DNA from: Streptomyces sp. NBC_00271
Lineage (GTDB): Bacteria > Actinomycetota > Actinomycetes > Streptomycetales > Streptomycetaceae
NCBI RefSeq assembly: GCF_036178845.1
Contig: NZ_CP108070.1
Location: 9,238,001 to 9,302,000, forward strand
Direction of reading: 5' to 3'
DNA length: 64,000 nucleotides
In this document: piece after piece, positions 7,708 to 18,509 of the stretch
Layout of the letters: every line of letters begins with the position of its first letter
Numbering within the stretch: the stretch's first letter is position 1
Position numbers and translations under genes: made by a program
The notes under the pieces: generated by a model
Databases searched by the model: none
The model's input: only the letters and a program-made list of their open reading frames with translations
What the model was told of the DNA's origin: nothing

Positions 7708-7892
7708 GCCCGGACGTACGCCTCTTTGGCAGTCGCACGGCCCAAGAGGCAACTCTCCGGGGCGCGTTGTCACCCTCACCGGTTCGAGTGGATGTCCTCG
7801 TGAAGCGGTGGTACGCCGTAACTCGTCGTGCTTGCTCACAGTTGTCGCGATAAGCGGGAATTGTGCGGTGGGCGCGACGAGGGGAGCGGTAC

Positions 7893-10277
7893 GTGGGCGG
7901 GATCACTCTGGTGCAGGACGAACCGGCTGCCGCGCCTGCGCAGCAGTCCCCTCCACCGGTCCCCGGGACCGCCCGCCTGAGCCCGCGCCAGGTACGGCTG
8001 GTCTTCTTCGGGCTCATGCTCGCGCTGCTGCTCGCCGCCCTCGATCAGATGATCGTGGCCACCGCGCTCCCGAAGATCGTCGGTGAGCTGCACGGCCTGG
8101 GCAGGATGTCCTGGGCGATCACCGCCTATCTGCTCACCTCCACCGTCGGACTCCCCGTCTACGGCAAGCTCGGCGACCTCTTCGGCCGCAAGGGCGTCTT
8201 CCAGTTCGCGATCGTCGTCTTCGTGGCCGGTTCGGCGTGCTCGGGACGCGCCCAGAGCATGGACCAGCTGATCGCCTTCCGTGCGATCCAGGGCGTCGGC
8301 GCGGGCGGCCTCATGATCGGCGTGCAGGCGATCATCGCGGACATCGTGCCGCCTCGCGAGCGCGGCCGCTTCATGGGCCTGATCGGCGCCGCCTTCGGCC
8401 TCGCCTCGGTCGCCGGGCCCCTCCTGGGCGGCTATTTCACCGACCACCTCTCCTGGCGCTGGTGCTTCTACATCAACGTGCCCTTCGGCCTGCTCACCCT
8501 GGCCGTCGTCACCGTCGTACTGAAGCTGCCCAGGCCCCCCGCGCGCGGACGCGTCGACGTACTCGGTGTGCTGCTGCTGGCCGCCGCGTCGACCTGCCTG
8601 GTCCTGCTGACCAGCTGGGGCGGCACCGAGTACGCCTGGGGCTCACGGGTCATCATGGGGCTCGGCGCGGGCGCGCTCGTCGCGACCGTCCTCTTCTTCG
8701 TCGCCGAGCGCTTCGCCACCGAACCCCTCATCCCGCCGAGGCTGTTCAAGGACGGCGTCTTCAACATCACCGCCCTGGTGGGGCTCGTCATCGGCGTCGC
8801 CCTCTTCGGAGCGGCCAGCTATCTGCCGACCTTCCTGCAGATGGTCGACGGGGCCAGCGCCACCGAGTCCGGACTCCTGATGCTCCCCATGATGGGCGGC
8901 ATCGTCGGCGCCTCCGTCGTCTGCGGACAGCTGATCAGCCGCACCGGCCGCTACAAGATCTATCCGATCCTCGGCAGCGCCCTGTCGGCCCTCGGCATGT
9001 GGCTCCTGTCCCGCCTCGAAGTCGACACGCCCCGACTGCAGTACAGCATCTGGATGGCCGTCCTCGGCGCGGGCATCGGCATGGTGATGCCGGTCCTGGT
9101 CCTCGCCGTGCAGAACTCCGTACGCCCCGCCGACCTCGGCACCGCGACCAGCGCCAACAACTACTTCCGGCAGATCGGCGGCAGCGTCGGCGCCGCCATC
9201 TTCGGCACGCTGTTCGCCCACCGGCTCTCGGACGCGCTCGCCGACCGCCTGCCCCCGCGCACCGGCCTGCCCGACCCCGAGTCCATCACCCCGCAGCTCG
9301 TCCACTCCCTGCCCGGGGCCCTGCGCGACGCCTACGTCCGCGCCTACGCGGACGCCATGCCGCGGATCTTCCTCTATCTCGTCCCGGTGCTCGTCCTGGG
9401 CCTGCTCATCGCCTGCTTCCTCAAGGAGAAACCGCTGGTGTCCCACAACGCCCCCATCGCCGACCCGGAAGCCGCACGGGTGAACGCCCCGATCCCGCAG
9501 GCCCGTTCGTCCTGCGCCGCCGGGATCCCCGTCTGCGGCACCGTGCAGCACCCCGACGGGACCGTCGTGCCGCGCGCCGCGCTCACCCTCATCGACATCG
9601 CCGGACAGCAGATCGGGCGGGGCGCCAGCGGCGAGGACGGCCGGTACGCGCTGTCCACGCCCGGATCGGGGTCGTACGTCCTGATCGCCGCGGCCGGCGG
9701 CCACCAGCCGCAGGCCGTCTCGGTGACCATCGGCGAGCGCCCCGTGGAACTGGACGTCGTCCTCGGCGGCGCCGGACGCCTCGCCGGGAGCGTACTGACC
9801 GCGGACGGCAGCCCCGTGCGCGACGCCACCGTCACGCTCACCAACGTCCACGGGGAAGTCGTGGCCGCCACCCGCAGCGGGCGCGAAGGCGGCTATGTCA
9901 TCACGGAGCTGGTGGCGGGCGAGTACACCCTCGCCGCCAGCGCGCCCGCGTTTCGCCCGGCCGCCCTGCCCGTCAGCGTGCAGGCCTCGCGCGAGACCCG
10001 CCAGGACGTCGAACTCGCGGGCGGCGCCGTGCTGCGCGGCACCGTGCGGGCGGGCGGCGGCCGGCCCGTCGAGGACGCGCGGGTGACGCTCCTGGACGCC
10101 GCGGGGAACGTGGTGGACACCCTCACCACCGGTGCGGACGGGGCGTTCCGGTTCGTCGACCTGTCCTCCGGCGAGTACACCGTCATCGCGGCGGGCTATC
10201 CGCCGGTGGCCACCGTGCTGCAGGTGGCCGGTGGGGGGCGCACGGAGCGGGATCTGCAGCTCGGCCACGAGGACTGA
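7893..10277 (+). CDS. DHA2-type MFS drug exporter with three C-terminal carboxypeptidase-regulatory-like repeats
   Basis: Residues 1-530 form a 14-helix major-facilitator exporter: [20 protein letters not shown] in the first helix, [11 protein letters not shown] loop motif [12 protein letters not shown] and [10 protein letters not shown] (motif C, antiporter). It probably expels drugs in exchange for protons. Residues 550-794 are unusual: three repeats of about 80 aa, each with a V-x-G-x-V ... V-x-A-x-V-x-L-x-D ... DGxYxxxxLxxGxYxxxA pattern, matching CarboxypepD_reg beta-sandwich domains. In a 14-helix topology these would sit in the cytoplasm, although such domains are usually extracellular. 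The GTG at 7893 is chosen because GGGGAG lies 6 nt upstream; a GTG 30 nt earlier has no ribosome site. Confidence 0.88.
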
Positions 10278-13084: not shown

Positions 13085-13813
13085 ATGAGCGTGACACATC
13101 GGTACAGGGAAGCCTGGGAGGGCTTCTGGCGCGAGGCCCCCGACGAGCAGGGAGCCGTCTTCTGGGACGCGGACCCCGCACTGACCGCGGGCGTCCACCT
13201 CGCCCTCTTCGAGCCGTACCTGTCGGCTCAGGATCTGCCGGTCGTGGACCTGGGCTGCGGCAACGGCACCCAGACCCGCTTCCTGGCCGATCGCTTCCGG
13301 CATGTGGTCGGCGCCGACCTCTCGGCCGCCGCTCTCGAGCACGCCCGCCTCGCCGATCCGGCGGGCCAGGCGACGTACCGGCTGCTCGACGCGGCCGAGA
13401 AGACCGAGGCGCAGACCCTGCACGCGGAGCTGGGCGACGCCAACGTCTATATGCGGGGCGTGCTCCACCAGTGCGAGCCGGACGACCGCCAGCCGCTGGT
13501 GGACGCCCTCGCCACCCTGGTGGGGGAGCGCGGCCGGGCCTTTCTCGTCGAACTCTCCGAAGCCGCCCGGCCGGTCCTGATGGGCCTGGCCCGGAGCTCC
13601 GAGGGACCGCCGCCCAAACTGGCCCCCATCTTCCGGCACGGCATCGCGCCCGGCGAGGTGTCCGACGACGCGGTCCCCGACTACCTTCGCGCGGCGGGCC
13701 TCACCGTCCTCGCGAGCGGCGAACTCCCTCTCGTGACCACCGAGTTCACGCCTGAGGGTGCGCGGATCGAGCTGCCGTCGAAGTGGCTGGTGGCAGGACG
13801 CACGTCCGGCTGA
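13085..13813 (+). CDS. Class I SAM-dependent methyltransferase
   Basis: The 242-aa protein has the Rossmann methyltransferase motif I PVVDLGCGNGTQTRFLAD (near 54-71), then VVGADLSAAALEHAR (motif II) and a later NVYMRGVLHQC segment equivalent to motif IV. It should methylate a small molecule; the substrate is unknown. GGGGAG lies 5 nt before the ATG, which decides the start over a GTG 21 nt upstream. It converges on the secreted protein gene of the peptide/M50 locus, with a perfect terminator hairpin between. Confidence 0.85.
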   Translation: MSVTHRYREAWEGFWREAPDEQGAVFWDADPALTAGVHLALFEPYLSAQDLPVVDLGCGNGTQTRFLADRFRHVVGADLSAAALEHARLADPAGQATYRLLDAAEKTEAQTLHAELGDANVYMRGVLHQCEPDDRQPLVDALATLVGERGRAFLVELSEAARPVLMGLARSSEGPPPKLAPIFRHGIAPGEVSDDAVPDYLRAAGLTVLASGELPLVTTEFTPEGARIELPSKWLVAGRTSG

Positions 13814-13881: not shown

Positions 13882-14580
13882 TCAGTGGCCGGGCCAGCCG
13901 TCCAGGTGACGGTGGACCGCGACGGCGGGCGCGTCCGGGGCCTTCGGTGCGCCTGCCACCGCGTCGTGCAGGACGTCGGTGACCTCCGCGGCCAGCGAGT
14001 CGGCCTGCGTCTTGAGGTCGGTCGCCGGGATCTTGGACCGGGTCAGGTCGTCCAGCCTGCGGTGGATGTCGGCGAGCTTGCGCTGCGCGGTGGCGTCCAG
14101 GGTGAACGGGCGGGCGGTGGACACCACGAACTGGTAGGCGCCGGCAAGGGTTTGGCAGCCGTCGCAGTGCTCGTTGGTCGCGTCGCTGAGGTTCACCGCG
14201 TTCAGGTGGGTGTTCTGGCCGGCCAGCGTGACGATCTGGAAGGACAGTGCGACCGACCGGCAGTGCGCGTCGACCGAGCAGCCGACGGAGACCGCGCCTG
14301 CCTGGTTGCGTACACCGACCGCCTTCGCCGTGCCGAGCTGCCGCACGGTGAAGGAGTCCTTGACCTGGGTCGGATGTGCCCGGTCGGCGTGACTGAAGGT
14401 GTGGTCCTCCGCGACGGCGTGGCGGGCGACCGAGCCCGCCGCCGCGGTGGCGGCCTGGGCCGGGACCGCCGCGGCGATACCGGCCGCGCCGGCCGCGAAC
14501 AGGCCTATGCGCATGGCCCGTTGGGAGAGGATTCGGCCGGCTGGGCGTGGCTTGCGGTGCGTGTTGGGATGGGTACTCAC
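13882..14580 (-). CDS. Secreted cysteine-containing protein of the peptide/M50 locus
   Basis: The 232-aa protein is not recognised. The GTG start at 14580 has AGGAG 7 nt upstream and gives an N-terminus with Arg/Lys (THRKPRPAGRILSQRAMR), a hydrophobic stretch and an Ala-x-Ala site (PAQAATAAAG), so it is probably exported. The mature part contains four Cys in two pairs (CSVDAHC, CDGC) that probably form disulfides, a beta-rich centre and a C-terminal amphipathic helical region (about 165-215). It is the last gene of the operon, 65 bp after the M50 protease gene. It could be a partner, substrate or receptor of the processed peptides; this is inference from position only. Confidence 0.82.
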   Translation of the reverse strand: MSTHPNTHRKPRPAGRILSQRAMRIGLFAAGAAGIAAAVPAQAATAAAGSVARHAVAEDHTFSHADRAHPTQVKDSFTVRQLGTAKAVGVRNQAGAVSVGCSVDAHCRSVALSFQIVTLAGQNTHLNAVNLSDATNEHCDGCQTLAGAYQFVVSTARPFTLDATAQRKLADIHRRLDDLTRSKIPATDLKTQADSLAAEVTDVLHDAVAGAPKAPDAPAVAVHRHLDGWPGH

Positions 14581-14645
14581 ATGGGTCTCCTGCGGTCGTG
14601 GTTCGGCGGGACGACGGCCACCGGGCTGGTGATCGCCGAGGGCGG

Positions 14646-16559
14646 TCACGGGGTGGCCGGGCTCGGTGCGCCGGTCGCGCTGACGGATTCGGTCGGCGTC
14701 GGCGGATCCGTCGAGGGCGCCGGTGCGGACGACGAGACGGACGGCGACGGGCCGGGCGGCTCGGACGGACCCGCGGGCGGACCGGCCGAGACGGAACCCG
14801 TCGTGCCCGGACCGCCGGCCGGTGTGGTCGGCTTCGTGGACGGGGAGGCGCCGGGTGACGTGGAGGCGGAGGCGTCCGCGCTGGGCGAGGCCGACGCGCT
14901 CGGCGCGGTGGCGGCCGTGGAGCCGGAGGACGCGGCGCCGGACGGCAGGGCCGCCGAGGTGTCGGACGGTGACGTGTGCGGCTGGGGCGCGGTCGCGGGC
15001 CGGGCGGGCGGCTGGGCCGTGGACACGCCGGGCTGGAGGATCGGCGCGATCGGCGGACGCTTCGGCAGCGGCTCGGGTGTCACACCGGACACCCACGCGT
15101 AGCTCAGCGAGCCGAGGCCCAGCAGTGCCAGCGCGCACAGTGCCACCCGCAGCCGGGGCTTGTCCGCCGTCGACCGCTTCGCGGCGCGGAAGACCCGGCC
15201 GCCCACCTTGAGCGACAGATAGACCACGCCGGCCATCGGGCACAGCAGCATGAAGCAGCCGATCACGCCCATCAGGGCCGCGGCGATCTGACCGCCCGCG
15301 AAGGCGTCCCCGGTTCCCACGACCTGGTCGGTGAGCGAGCGGACCATCGTCGCGACGATCCGCGGCAGGTTCCACAGCGCGTATCCGAGCTCGCCGATCA
15401 GCAGCGGCACCATGGTGAGGACCCAGGTGGTGATGATGGTCCGGGACGACTTCTTGAGCCCGACGACCTCGGCGCGCGCCGCCTTGCCGCGCCGACCCGG
15501 AACCGTGCTGAGCAGAATCGGTTTGATCTTGCCGTAGAGGTCCGGGACGCCGGCGAGGTCGCCCAGGATGTAGTAGCCGTCCAGCCGGACGGCCGGCATC
15601 AGCTGCTCCAGGATCTCGAAGTGCCCGAGATAGACCGCGGCCAGGAAGAACTGCTGCCCGGTGGCGAAGTACGCGCCCGCCATCCCGAGCATGAAGACGA
15701 CGTTGAAGTACACCCCGCCCAGGTCGGTACGGAGCCGTCCGGCCCGGCCGATCCGGTAGATGTCCGTCACGTCGGTGTACATGGACGGCCAGATGAGGAA
15801 GAGCCCGCAGCCGATGCAGCCCGGCCGTGCGCCCCCGTATCTGCACGCCGAGGCGTGGCCGAACTCGTGGAAGACCAGCGAGGCCACGGTGAGCGCGAAC
15901 ACGACGAGCATCAGGATCGGCTGGTCGAGGACCTGGAGCACGGGTTCCACCGCGCCGAAGAAGCCGAACAGCCAGACGTCCATGGCCACGGCCGACGCCA
16001 GCATCAGCACGACCACCGTGGGGCGGTGCAGCCAGGCCAGCGAGCGGGCGATCCGGCCCGACCGGCGCTCGTTGAAGATGATCCGGTGCCCCTTGAGGGC
16101 GAGGAGCAGGTCGGAGCGTGGCGCAGAGACCTCGTCCTCCTCCTTGCCCTCGGGCACGGTGACGCCGAGCGGGTCGAGTTTCTCCTCGACCAGGAAACGC
16201 ACGTTGTCGGCGCTCAGCTCGCGGCCGTAGCGGGCGCTGACCCGGTGCGAGATGGTCTCGATGTCGTTCACGCCGTCGATCGCGGAGGCGACCAGGTACA
16301 GCAGCCGTGACAGCTGCACGACCTGGCCGTCTCCGCGGCGCGCGATGTACTTCGGCTCGGTGAAGCCCGAACCCTGGTACTCCCCGTGCAGTTTGAGCCC
16401 GGAGCTCAGCCGAGGCACCGGCAGCGCCTCGACGCCGGCGCCGACAACCGGCAGGCTTCCCGTGGCGAACTGCTCGTAGGTGACCGGGATTCCCCCCGGC
16501 CCCGGCACCGGCGACCCGGTGTCGTACAGCAACGTGGGCCCGTCCCCCAGTGCCGTCAT
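14646..16559 (-). CDS. M50 site-2-protease-like membrane metalloprotease with N-terminal PqqD-like domain
   Basis: This 637-aa protein belongs to the putative peptide zinc metalloprotease group (YydH-like). Residues 78-135 (VVQLSRLLYLVASAIDG... to DPLGVTV) look like a PqqD-type winged helix, the fold used to bind leader peptides. The S2P core has HEFGH at 231-235 in one membrane helix and the third zinc ligand in RLDGYY (Asp327). About six or seven hydrophobic segments lie between 180 and 515. The last 125 residues are a Pro/Ser/Thr/Ala-rich disordered tail after a final helix, probably outside the cell. AAGGA lies 6 nt before the ATG. The neighbouring small peptides are the obvious candidate substrates. 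No radical SAM, lanthionine synthetase or ABC exporter is next to it. Confidence 0.88.
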   Translation of the reverse strand: MTALGDGPTLLYDTGSPVPGPGGIPVTYEQFATGSLPVVGAGVEALPVPRLSSGLKLHGEYQGSGFTEPKYIARRGDGQVVQLSRLLYLVASAIDGVNDIETISHRVSARYGRELSADNVRFLVEEKLDPLGVTVPEGKEEDEVSAPRSDLLLALKGHRIIFNERRSGRIARSLAWLHRPTVVVLMLASAVAMDVWLFGFFGAVEPVLQVLDQPILMLVVFALTVASLVFHEFGHASACRYGGARPGCIGCGLFLIWPSMYTDVTDIYRIGRAGRLRTDLGGVYFNVVFMLGMAGAYFATGQQFFLAAVYLGHFEILEQLMPAVRLDGYYILGDLAGVPDLYGKIKPILLSTVPGRRGKAARAEVVGLKKSSRTIITTWVLTMVPLLIGELGYALWNLPRIVATMVRSLTDQVVGTGDAFAGGQIAAALMGVIGCFMLLCPMAGVVYLSLKVGGRVFRAAKRSTADKPRLRVALCALALLGLGSLSYAWVSGVTPEPLPKRPPIAPILQPGVSTAQPPARPATAPQPHTSPSDTSAALPSGAASSGSTAATAPSASASPSADASASTSPGASPSTKPTTPAGGPGTTGSVSAGPPAGPSEPPGPSPSVSSSAPAPSTDPPTPTESVSATGAPSPATP

Positions 16560-16580
16560 TTCTGGTCCTTCCCCCCCAAG

Positions 16581-16615
16581 GGCGGACCGCGCCCGCCCCC
16601 CGGGCGCGGTCCGCC
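16581..16615 (-). terminator. Strong hairpin between peptide genes and protease gene, possible attenuator
   Basis: A perfect 15-bp GC stem (16581-16595 with 16601-16615) closes a loop of five C. It lies 26 nt after the second peptide stop and before the M50 gene on the same strand. It probably lets most transcripts stop after the peptide genes, so peptide exceeds protease. Confidence 0.75.
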
Positions 16616-16640
16616 GAACTGCCGTTGTGCGCGGCGGGTG

Positions 16641-16859
16641 TTACTGCGTGACGTTGATCGCCTGGTTGGCGCTGGACTCCGCCACCGACCAGCTGGAGTG
16701 GTCGTTCAGGGCGGCCGACTCGTTGTGGGCGCTGATGTTGGCGACGTGCTTGGTCACGTTGGTGGTGCGGCCGAAGCTGAACTTCAGGCGGCCCAGGGCC
16801 TCACGGCCGGGGAGGAGCTCGGCGGACTCGGACTGCAGCTCGTTCATGTCCATGCTCAT
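16641..16859 (-). CDS. Small paralogous peptide 1 (candidate precursor peptide)
   Basis: This 72-aa protein has no known family and no signal peptide. It is a paralogue of the 71-aa peptide just upstream; the shared core is AELLPGREALGRLKFSFG, then NVTKHVANI, SAALNDHSSWS and QAINV.Q. The N-terminal third is acidic and leader-like (MNELQSESAELL), the rest is rich in Asn, Ser, Ala and His, with no Cys. AAAGGA lies 6 nt before the start at 16859; later in-frame ATGs are at 16853 and 16847. Position before a PqqD-like/M50 gene suggests a precursor that is cut by that protease. A structural (amyloid-like) or regulatory peptide is an alternative. Confidence 0.85.
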   Translation of the reverse strand: MSMDMNELQSESAELLPGREALGRLKFSFGRTTNVTKHVANISAHNESAALNDHSSWSVAESSANQAINVTQ

Positions 16860-16941
16860 GGGATGTCCTTTCGGGACGTGGTTCGTTGATGCGGGTGTGG
16901 TGATGGCACAGAGGCGGATGCGGGCGAGCACCCGGTGATGT

Positions 16942-16959
16942 GGAGGCGGGCGAGCCTCC
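16942..16959 (-). terminator. Small hairpin between the two peptide genes
   Basis: GGAGGC (16942-16947) pairs with GCCTCC (16954-16959) over a 6-nt loop, just past the upstream peptide stop codon. Weak on its own; perhaps an mRNA-stabilising end. Confidence 0.4.
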
Positions 16960-16967
16960 GGTGCCGA

Positions 16968-17183
16968 TTACTGGTGGACGTTGATGGCCTGCGAGGCGCC
17001 CGACGACGCGTCCGACCAGCTGGAGTGGTCGTTCAGGGCGGCCGACTGGTTGGAGGCGTCGATGTTCGCGACGTGCTTGGTCACGTTGACGGTCTTGCCG
17101 AAGCTGAACTTCAGCCGACCGAGGGCCTCGCGACCCGGCAGCAGCTCGGCGGTCTCGGTGTCGAGTTCACGGTTGTCCATCAT
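16968..17183 (-). CDS. Small paralogous peptide 2 (candidate precursor peptide)
   Basis: The 71-aa protein is the first gene of the operon and a paralogue of peptide 1, with roughly 70 per cent identical positions by eye over the aligned length. Conserved blocks are AELLPGREALGRLKFSFG, NVTKHVANI, SAALNDHSSWS and QAINV.Q; the variable positions are the first 10 residues and single residues between blocks (IDASNQ against ISAHNE, SDASSGAS against SVAESSAN). No Cys, no signal peptide. Translation starts at a double ATG (17183 or 17180) with GAGGGGGA 7 nt upstream. The promoter region contains several TGTCCAA-type sites, probably bound by the divergent Xre protein. Confidence 0.86.
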   Translation of the reverse strand: MMDNRELDTETAELLPGREALGRLKFSFGKTVNVTKHVANIDASNQSAALNDHSSWSDASSGASQAINVHQ

Positions 17184-17245
17184 GATCAATTCCCCCTCAG
17201 GGATGGGCATTTCCGATCGGACAGAGGCTGGTTCCCCCCAAACTC

Positions 17246-17286
17246 TGTCCAATCTGGTCGGACGTGCTGTCCAACGAGATTGGACA
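17246..17286. promoter_or_regulatory. Operator-like TGTCCAA inverted repeats between peptide operon and Xre gene
   Basis: TGTCCAA (17268-17274) and TTGGACA (17280-17286) form a perfect 7-bp inverted repeat with a 5-nt spacer. A second, degenerate copy 22 bp away (TGTCCAA 17246-17252 facing TCGGACG) has the same spacing. A further TCGGACA half-site lies near 17217. The region is the only promoter space for the peptide operon and the Xre regulator. Confidence 0.7.
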
Positions 17287-17413
17287 GTAGTAGCCCCGGA
17301 GCTCGCCGCGCAAGCGGTTCGGGAAAAGACTTCTGGGGCCGGAGCGAAGCCCCCCGTAGAATCGATCCCGCTTGGAAGAGTTCCGCCCGGCGGCGAGCAG
17401 GAAGTGACCATCG

Positions 17414-17809
17414 GTGGCCAACGCACTGCAGCAGATCATCAGAGATCGCCTCGACCGCGAAGGCTGGTCCTACGGCGAAGTGGCACGTCGGGGCGGCATT
17501 CCGCGCTCCACCGTCCACCACTTGGCCACGGCCGAGCGCGTGGTGCGCATGCCCCAGCCCAGCACGCTGGAAGGGCTGTCCAAGGGGCTTGGACTGTCGT
17601 TGGACACCGTGCGGCGGGCCGCCGCGGAGGCGTGCGGCATTCATGTCTACGCGGCCGACGCCCCGCCCGCCGAAGGCGCGCCCGGCGCGCCGGCCGACCC
17701 CGAGGTCGACCTGCTCATCGCCAGCGTCCAGCAACTCTCGGCCGACGACCGCCGCCATGTCGCCGCCCTGGTCCAGTCCTTGCTGGGCCGCGACGCACGA
17801 CGCGGCTAG
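17414..17809 (+). CDS. Xre/Cro family regulator of the peptide/M50 locus
   Basis: The 131-aa protein has an N-terminal helix-turn-helix (about 5-65): LQQIIRDRLDREGWSYGEVARRGGIPRSTVHHLAT, then STLEGLSKGLGLSLDTVRRAA, typical Cro/CI. The C-terminal half has a Pro/Ala linker and a helical segment (DLLIASVQQLSADDRRHVAALVQSLL) that may dimerise. It starts at GTG with AGGAAG upstream and is divergent from the two peptide genes across 230 bp that hold palindromic sites, so it most likely represses or activates that operon and itself. Confidence 0.88.
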   Translation: MANALQQIIRDRLDREGWSYGEVARRGGIPRSTVHHLATAERVVRMPQPSTLEGLSKGLGLSLDTVRRAAAEACGIHVYAADAPPAEGAPGAPADPEVDLLIASVQQLSADDRRHVAALVQSLLGRDARRG

Positions 17810-18248: not shown

Positions 18249-18509
18249 GTGCTGTTCGTGCACGGAGGACCCACCACCGCAGTGGTGCGGGGCAGTACAG
18301 GAGAGTCCGTCGTCCTCCTCTCCGGTGAGCTGCCCGACATACTGACCGAGGGCGCACTCACCGAACTCCTCGACCTCGCCGCGGCCGTCCTCGACGAGGA
18401 GGAGCTGAAACTCTTCCGGCGCTGCCTGGACGCCCTCGTCCGGGGCGAGGGCGGCACTCCGCGCCGCATCGAACTCGACGGCGTCGTACTGACCGTTTAC
18501 GAGGACTGA
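18249..18509 (+). CDS. Small acidic conserved-looking protein
   Basis: This 86-aa protein is not recognised. It starts at GTG (18249) with AGGGGGA about 4 nt upstream; a nested ATG two bases earlier is out of frame. It is strongly acidic, with a predicted helical middle (TELLDLAAAVLDEEELKLFRRCLDALV) and a short beta end (RRIELDGVVLTVYED). Codon use is normal for the region. The remnant of a DUF574-type methyltransferase follows directly, overlapping its stop codon. Confidence 0.6.
   Translation: MLFVHGGPTTAVVRGSTGESVVLLSGELPDILTEGALTELLDLAAAVLDEEELKLFRRCLDALVRGEGGTPRRIELDGVVLTVYED

Follow-up and report, generated by a model that had tools for sequence, protein, structure and literature searches.

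The window analysed here, the whole 64-kb stretch at positions 9238001-9302000 of a Streptomyces chromosome, carries a gene module in which two small peptide genes (pepB, then pepA) are followed on the minus strand, in the order of transcription, by a hairpin, a gene for an M50-type membrane metalloprotease (hereafter M50) and a gene for a predicted exported protein (SEC). An Xre-type regulator and then a small gene, SMALL1, run divergently from them. The features of the module are the following, with protein lengths in amino acids (aa):

13882..14580, minus strand: SEC, 232 aa, predicted to be exported, with four Cys and two imperfect Cys-containing repeats
14646..16559, minus strand: M50 membrane metalloprotease, 637 aa, with an N-terminal RRE/PqqD-like domain and a Ser/Pro/Thr-rich C-terminal tail
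15855..15869, minus strand: zinc motif HEFGH of M50, residues 231-235
16137..16424, minus strand: RRE/PqqD-like domain of M50, residues 46-141, predicted to bind the leader
16581..16616, minus strand: hairpin between pepA and M50, a perfect 15-bp stem (16581-16595 / 16602-16616) with a 6-nt loop
16641..16859, minus strand: pepA, 72 aa, a leader followed by a putative beta-repeat core, with a C-terminal Gln
16968..17183, minus strand: pepB, 71 aa, a paralogue of pepA
17246..17286, no strand assigned: predicted Xre operator, made of a half-site TGTCCAA (17246-17252) and a palindrome TGTCCAACGAGATTGGACA (17268-17286)
17414..17809, plus strand: Xre-type regulator, 131 aa, divergent, with Pfam HTH_3 and HTH_31 above cut-off
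18249..18509, plus strand: SMALL1, 86 aa, about 440 bp beyond Xre

An earlier, sequence-only reading of this locus had given coordinates for SEC, M50, pepA, pepB and Xre that hold in the sequence, and the strong hairpin that it described is the perfect stem listed above; SMALL1 and the palindromic operator in the promoter space were absent from it. Its call of one operon fits gene order and strand, and operon status is itself deduced from just these two features. The closest relative of the module lies in S. olivochromogenes (locus L041), where both peptides are 100% identical and M50 and SEC 98% identical to those of the window.

A scan of GTDB species genomes returned 94 loci, the best 80 of which underlie the Streptomycetaceae counts given here; the peptide was present in 19 of the 199 genomes of the genus, the window's own genome counted. 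M50 lay within 1.6 kb downstream of the peptide in 76/80 loci, and among the four misses three end within 211 bp of a contig end, leaving L119 as a true miss. SEC followed M50 in 65 of these 76 loci, and in all 11 others the M50 match ends within 508 bp of a contig end. By tblastn, Xre was detected in 73/80, SMALL1 in 74/80 and at least two peptides in 69/80 loci. Clustering of open reading frames (ORFs), called with a home-made ORF caller, yielded five families that recur in the majority of the 80 loci, namely the peptide (80), M50 (76), SMALL1 (75), Xre (71) and SEC (56, below the tblastn figure because of the home-made calling). As only these five exceed half of the loci, the module has no conserved maturase, exporter or immunity gene, in agreement with the earlier reading, which had seen neither a maturase nor an ATP-binding cassette (ABC) exporter. 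The next commonest cluster was an ABC ATPase (33/80 loci); the ABC genes (ATPase c6, 33/80; permease c12, 28/80) were rejected as members because c12 sits in one same chromosomal block in 27 of its 28 loci. A methyltransferase gene at 13085-13813 was rejected as well: its cluster has three members, including that of the window, and it scored 19.1 bits against daptide_MTase (cut-off 175). The pairing of M50 and peptide, set beforehand as one of two points on which the sequence-only reading was to stand or fall, is conserved in 76/80 Streptomycetaceae and 18/20 distant loci, which supports that reading. In Streptomyces sp. DHE7-1 a copy of the module is situated towards either end of the chromosome (L106 and L107); the two may belong to terminal inverted repeats, although their M50 matches differ.

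The two peptides, described earlier as paralogues sharing conserved blocks, are indeed 77% identical to each other. The small ORFs are conserved across the 80 loci at 51-100% protein identity, indicating that they are genes, and in 64 comparisons of peptide genes the differences at the three codon positions numbered 893/666/1284, the excess at the third position being that expected of a coding gene. The leader 'EL.AESAELLPGREALG' is common to 144 distinct Streptomycetaceae peptides, and is followed by a highly conserved, weakly charged core rich in Ala, Ser, Val, Asn, Thr and Gln. This core of 41 residues contains roughly 1.4 Lys+Arg, hardly any Cys and 6% His, which is lacking from distant cores, and ends in Gln in 143 of the 144 peptides, the remaining one being interrupted by a contig end. 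None of the 144 has a membrane-like window, and 2 of 126 distant peptides reach 1.5 in the transmembrane-window scan. At the leader-core border a 12-residue gap separates the Streptomycetaceae from the distant peptide family. The profile of the peptide alignment (A4) found no sequence relatives in the PDB at E 10, and the window peptides matched nothing in Pfam or NCBIfam at E 1, so that the other refuting condition of the earlier reading, peptides belonging to a known system, fails too. M50 and SEC likewise gave no Pfam match at E 1, and the peptides and SEC are covered by no named family.

M50 belongs by sequence to the M50-type metalloproteases, with a HExxH motif and a distal LDG aspartate placed in predicted membrane segments: H231, E232, H235 and the LDG Asp D327 were invariant in an alignment of 36 sequences, and five sequences showed 5-7 hydrophobic segments in the M50 part. 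Its best NCBIfam match was daptide_HExxH (NF041824) at a sub-threshold 76.7 bits (cut-off 300), and LiaK (NF058609) was also sub-threshold at 37.5 bits (cut-off 225); no sequence relatives were found in the PDB at E 1. The N-terminal PqqD-like domain proposed earlier is upheld by a predicted model and fold comparison, in which it shows the beta3-alpha3 winged-helix fold, about 80 residues long, that marks RRE/PqqD domains, and from this model the domain is predicted to bind the leader. A profile search found M50 as a single copy in the window's genome. In Streptacidiphilus jiangxiensis a second M50 paralogue, 45-46% identical, lies near the module (L102:5732 onward, minus strand).

The module extends beyond Streptomycetaceae. 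The Streptomycetaceae SEC profile found relatives in 11/396 Actinomycetota genomes, across the phylum, and most of them are adjoined by M50 genes and tandem peptides. Refined profiles detected the peptide in 20/396 and SEC in 16/396 genomes, with 15 shared, and database proteins in alignment A4 may stem from further genomes of the 396; SEC without peptide was seen in G243, and peptide without SEC in G320, G325, G376, G428 and G517. The distant peptides have the leader 'L..EEL..Q..E.LP.RE.MSLINAN' and the core 'APVNAAVAANVLSDDSVAYANAEQDVDIDQS', and lie beside M50 in 18 of 20 loci, the exceptions being L136, which has no M50 within 18 kb, and L181, whose peptides are at a contig end. In seven loci (L139, L140, L141, L171, L172, L175, L179) M50 and SEC are matched by a single ORF, so that SEC forms the C-terminal domain of the protease, and all seven carry a single long precursor, with two strong core copies in those of L139 and L141. 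No other observation ties protease, SEC and substrate together as strongly as this fusion. Elsewhere there are up to four tandem peptide copies (L133, L176), and precursors of 200-300 aa with repeats occur in other lineages. One distant peptide had 7269 relatives (90% clusters) in 5.8 billion proteins; among the 120 listed, every name given was 'hypothetical protein'.

The same type of leader also precedes other cores. Beside M50 in L177, L178 and L182 it stands before a chaplin-like core, and the L178 precursor scored 15.5 bits against ChpA-C (PF03777; cut-off 21). In hhalign against 11 of the 13 chaplin domains found in the window's genome, the three leader-bearing cores gave E 2e-4, and E 2e-5 when eight leaderless relatives were added, with 0/200 shuffles in either comparison. 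The leader-RRE-M50 unit therefore seems to serve several cores of self-assembling type. L197 and L198 have this type of leader before another core type with two Cys, with M50 adjoining in L197; in L174:2992-3555 and L180:9201-9638 a leader-bearing protein has an Asn/Gln-rich stretch (EQNNF...) of prion-like composition between two core copies. Beside the peptides, L133:6606-6896, L137:11827-12054 and L176:1783-2061 encode small proteins without a leader that may be related to the core; they have a 'GxVNAVVAANV'-like motif and a tail that is basic and Q-R-rich. In three distant loci SEC is followed by a gene for a lipoprotein-like protein of 258-281 aa (L134:4997-5842, L137:7665-8441, L138:7960-8763); the L138 protein gave no Pfam match.

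The exported four-Cys protein of the earlier reading holds up in that the four Cys are conserved and the N-terminus, judged by eye, resembles a signal peptide, so that export is predicted. Within each lineage the peptide core aligns in register with the SEC Cys-repeat, Ser replacing Cys, and 2/2000 and 1/2000 shuffles were as good, in column shuffles that ignore row relatedness, as the Fisher tests ignore phylogeny. The common unit reads N-x3-A-x-N-x2-[S/C]-x2-[S/C]-x-[A/T]-x-A-x-A-x-Q, and no invariant SEC residue corresponds to the last invariant Gln of the peptides (62 in A4). The Streptomycetaceae peptide alignment scored 25.1 against the SEC profile, with 1/100 shuffles higher. Core and SEC thus appear, from their alignment, to carry the same strand-turn-strand unit. 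Against the PDB, the SEC profiles matched a mid-cell-anchored protein at E 0.17 and, by way of the SEC helices, helical bundles both natural and designed (best E 0.0012). A Foldseek search gave 35 weak rows, of which we take 15 to be beta-helix or beta-solenoid proteins, none of these significant.

Expression of the module is probably controlled by Xre through the operator predicted from sequence in the shared promoter. In the 59 of 80 loci in which Xre and peptide were called divergent within 900 bp, at least one TGTCCAA/TTGGACA heptamer was found in 57 intergenic regions, the two misses (L069, L071) being extracted as short intervals, and a spaced heptamer pair was present in 21/21 regions from L041 to L061. 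The module promoter holds the only copy of the palindrome TGTCCAA-N5-TTGGACA in the 12.28-Mb genome, so the regulator probably acts mainly there. Profiles of Xre and SMALL1 had no match in 21 distant loci, indicating that this regulation is lineage-specific, so far confined to Streptomycetaceae. After the last peptide, stems of at least 10 bp were found in 39/74 loci and in 18/225 random windows, and a fold-energy z of -2 or lower in 45/74 loci; in the near-identical L041 the 15-bp stem was measured, with a fold-energy z of -0.9 in GC-rich DNA. The hairpin is a probable partial terminator or processing site, and these strong stems suggest that the peptides are made in excess over M50. SMALL1, which lies downstream of Xre in 75/80 loci by ORF cluster and had no Pfam or NCBIfam match at E 10, is a possible co-regulator. 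Rodlin-type genes lie within about 110 bp of SMALL1 in 8/80 loci (L079, L086-L091, L099), as a pair in seven; a rodlin-type pair of L036 scored 180.7 and 168.9 bits (cut-off 75). The rodlin-adjacent loci may simply be syntenic relatives.

What we observed at these loci, namely co-inheritance, fusion, leader/core architecture, a catalytic motif and conserved operator-like sites, leads us to propose that the RRE-M50 protease frees beta-repeat cores that assemble on SEC into a surface fibre or coat, a reading to which we give a probability of roughly 0.48. The RRE domain would capture the leader 'EL..ES.ELLPGREAL', as predicted from the model, and M50 would cut between leader and core, probably right after the REAL/REEM motif. 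The hydrophilic core may then leave the cell by way of M50 or next to it, a route that PMC10885120 gives as proposed for EpeP, and the freed strand-turn-strand subunits may stack on SEC by a curli-like logic. SEC is the predicted assembly partner, a nucleator or anchor: because core and SEC seem to share the strand-turn-strand unit, SEC, whether separate or, elsewhere, as the C-terminal domain of M50, could act as template or anchor in the way CsgB does for CsgA. The earlier suggestion that the peptides are cut by M50 and act outside the cell we infer as well, with the SEC-M50 fusion and the apparently shared repeat behind it. The wider proposal is held more tentatively: a phylum-wide fibre assembly line, in which RRE-M50 takes the place of Sec and a signal peptidase in freeing the subunits and the nucleator with the common repeat is partnered with or fused to the protease, would bring cleavage, export and templating to one site and accept varied cores, chaplin-like ones among them.

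Several results weigh against fibre assembly on SEC. The core-SEC match failed across lineages, a mixed-lineage peptide alignment reaching only E 0.094 against the SEC profile and a distant-core profile built from 126 rows, one of seven hand-picked rows having dropped out, giving no better than E 0.11-0.22 against SEC proteins. SEC is missing from the G428 loci, which lie on long contigs, and the chaplin-like precursors of L177 and L182 have no chaplin Pfam match; the last two points make us slightly less confident of the fibre mechanism.

The alternative that fares best, and which we still consider unlikely, is a bioactive pair akin to ribosomally synthesized and post-translationally modified peptides (RiPPs), in which M50 would free secreted antimicrobial or haemolytic peptides and SEC would serve immunity or delivery. 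The best NCBIfam match of the protease, a daptide leader peptidase, points this way, as do the two paralogous precursors, the RRE-leader logic and a dedicated regulator, all usual in RiPP clusters. However, the families that recur in over half of the loci include neither a modification enzyme nor an ABC exporter, the conserved, weakly charged, nearly Cys-free and Gln-ended cores are unlike diversifying toxins, and long multi-repeat precursors, a repeat apparently shared with SEC and the want of a conserved separate immunity gene argue in the same direction.

Three further readings are improbable. SEC might bind the peptides one to one in a coat that does not polymerise, for instance as wall-bound ligands for adhesion or metal binding; such ligands would use the conserved His/Asn and the four Cys of SEC. 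The His-rich Streptomycetaceae core (6% His) and the four conserved Cys would suit this role, whereas distant cores are without His, and stacking is suggested by the repeat precursors and by the alternative, chaplin-like cores. We see equally little prospect for the cores as secreted pheromones, freed by M50 and sensed through Xre/SMALL1 at development. Eep releases pheromones in enterococci, and small peptides beside an M50 enzyme, with a divergent regulator that has its own predicted operator, are consistent with such a signal, but repeat cores of 35-50 residues and repeat precursors of 200-300 aa are unlike pheromones, Xre and SMALL1 were not found in 21 distant loci, and no importer is among the conserved families. 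Finally, the module might be an envelope-stress sensor based on regulated intramembrane proteolysis: M50 would sense through SEC as its extracytoplasmic domain, and the peptides would be regulatory substrates whose cleavage signals the condition of the envelope. The SEC-M50 fusion in seven distant loci and the signalling roles of the M50 enzymes SpoIVFB and RseP would accord with this, yet it is hardly probable given that no transmembrane-like window occurs in the 144 Streptomycetaceae peptides, that tandem copies, as many as four, and long repeat precursors are more in keeping with a structural subunit, and that a repeat is apparently common to core and SEC.

Some neighbouring genes lie outside the module. 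A second locus type (L097, L104, L105, L109, L111, L113-L115, L117, L118, L120) has IS3-like orfA/orfB, found in 12/80 loci overall and scoring 123.5 bits against the IS3 profile in L114 (cut-off 160), together with a gene of 80-90 aa (c21, 11/80) that is convergent with Xre among the loci displayed; orfA/orfB and c21 are possibly a domesticated transposase cassette. In the window, 7863-10277 encodes a DHA2-type major facilitator superfamily transporter (EmrB subfamily above cut-off), whose last ~250 residues resemble, by eye, repeated carboxypeptidase-regulatory-like domains.

If assembly of M50-freed cores on SEC is true, a large unseen class of small proteins gains a function, and leader recognition of the RiPP type builds an extracellular structure instead of a natural product. 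It would also bring the curli-like template logic to Gram-positive bacteria, with the template fused to a protease, and make the surface coating of Streptomyces and of little-studied actinobacteria testable beyond chaplins and rodlins.

M50 is of a known superfamily, but no name exists for the peptide family, for SEC or for their combination with the protease; the module falls into none of the systems tested, and we recognised no description of it in searches of openly licensed PMC papers. In daptides (MpaA/MpaP of Microbacterium paraoxydans), according to PMC10036551, an RRE-dependent intramembrane peptidase removes a leader with the motif E-L-D-P-M-E, to which the E-L-L-P-G-R-E of the module is similar, and the RRE-peptidase fusion, a leader motif of the type E-L-x-P..E and several precursors per cluster are shared features. 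Unlike daptides, the module has no conserved oxidative decarboxylase, aminotransferase or methyltransferase, and its precursors end in Gln, not Thr; daptide membership was thus rejected, there being no conserved MpaB/C/D/M-type genes and the C-terminal residue being Gln. The M50 protease EpeP/YydH is proposed, according to the review PMC10885120, to cleave and export the small peptide EpeX/YydF. Unlike epipeptides, the module has a predicted extracytoplasmic partner, SEC, and its LiaK score is below cut-off; the five families found in most of the 80 loci include no radical-SAM epimerase, a statement made with no radical-SAM profile run. Chaplins are exported by Sec. Chaplins and rodlins are small, secreted, self-assembling surface proteins of actinobacteria, ChpA-C bearing sortase signals, according to the review PMC5618241. 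The module resembles the chaplins (PF03777) and rodlins (NF041022) in the chaplin-like cores of L177/L178/L182 and in the rodlin-type genes that adjoin 8/80 loci; the window peptides match neither family. No match to curlin (Pfam) was found for the window peptides at E 1 or for the scanned distant precursors at E 10. In curli, CsgB nucleates CsgA, and the subunit has its strand-turn-strand repeat, with ladders of Asn, Gln and Ser, in common with the surface-bound partner. The module differs from curli in its repeat, in that no CsgG/E/F-like exporter was seen and in that its subunits have no Sec signal, a leader being removed instead, on our proposal, by RRE-M50; a strand-turn-strand repeat common to subunit and partner, as in curli, may also exist here between core and SEC, whose match holds within lineages and fails across them.

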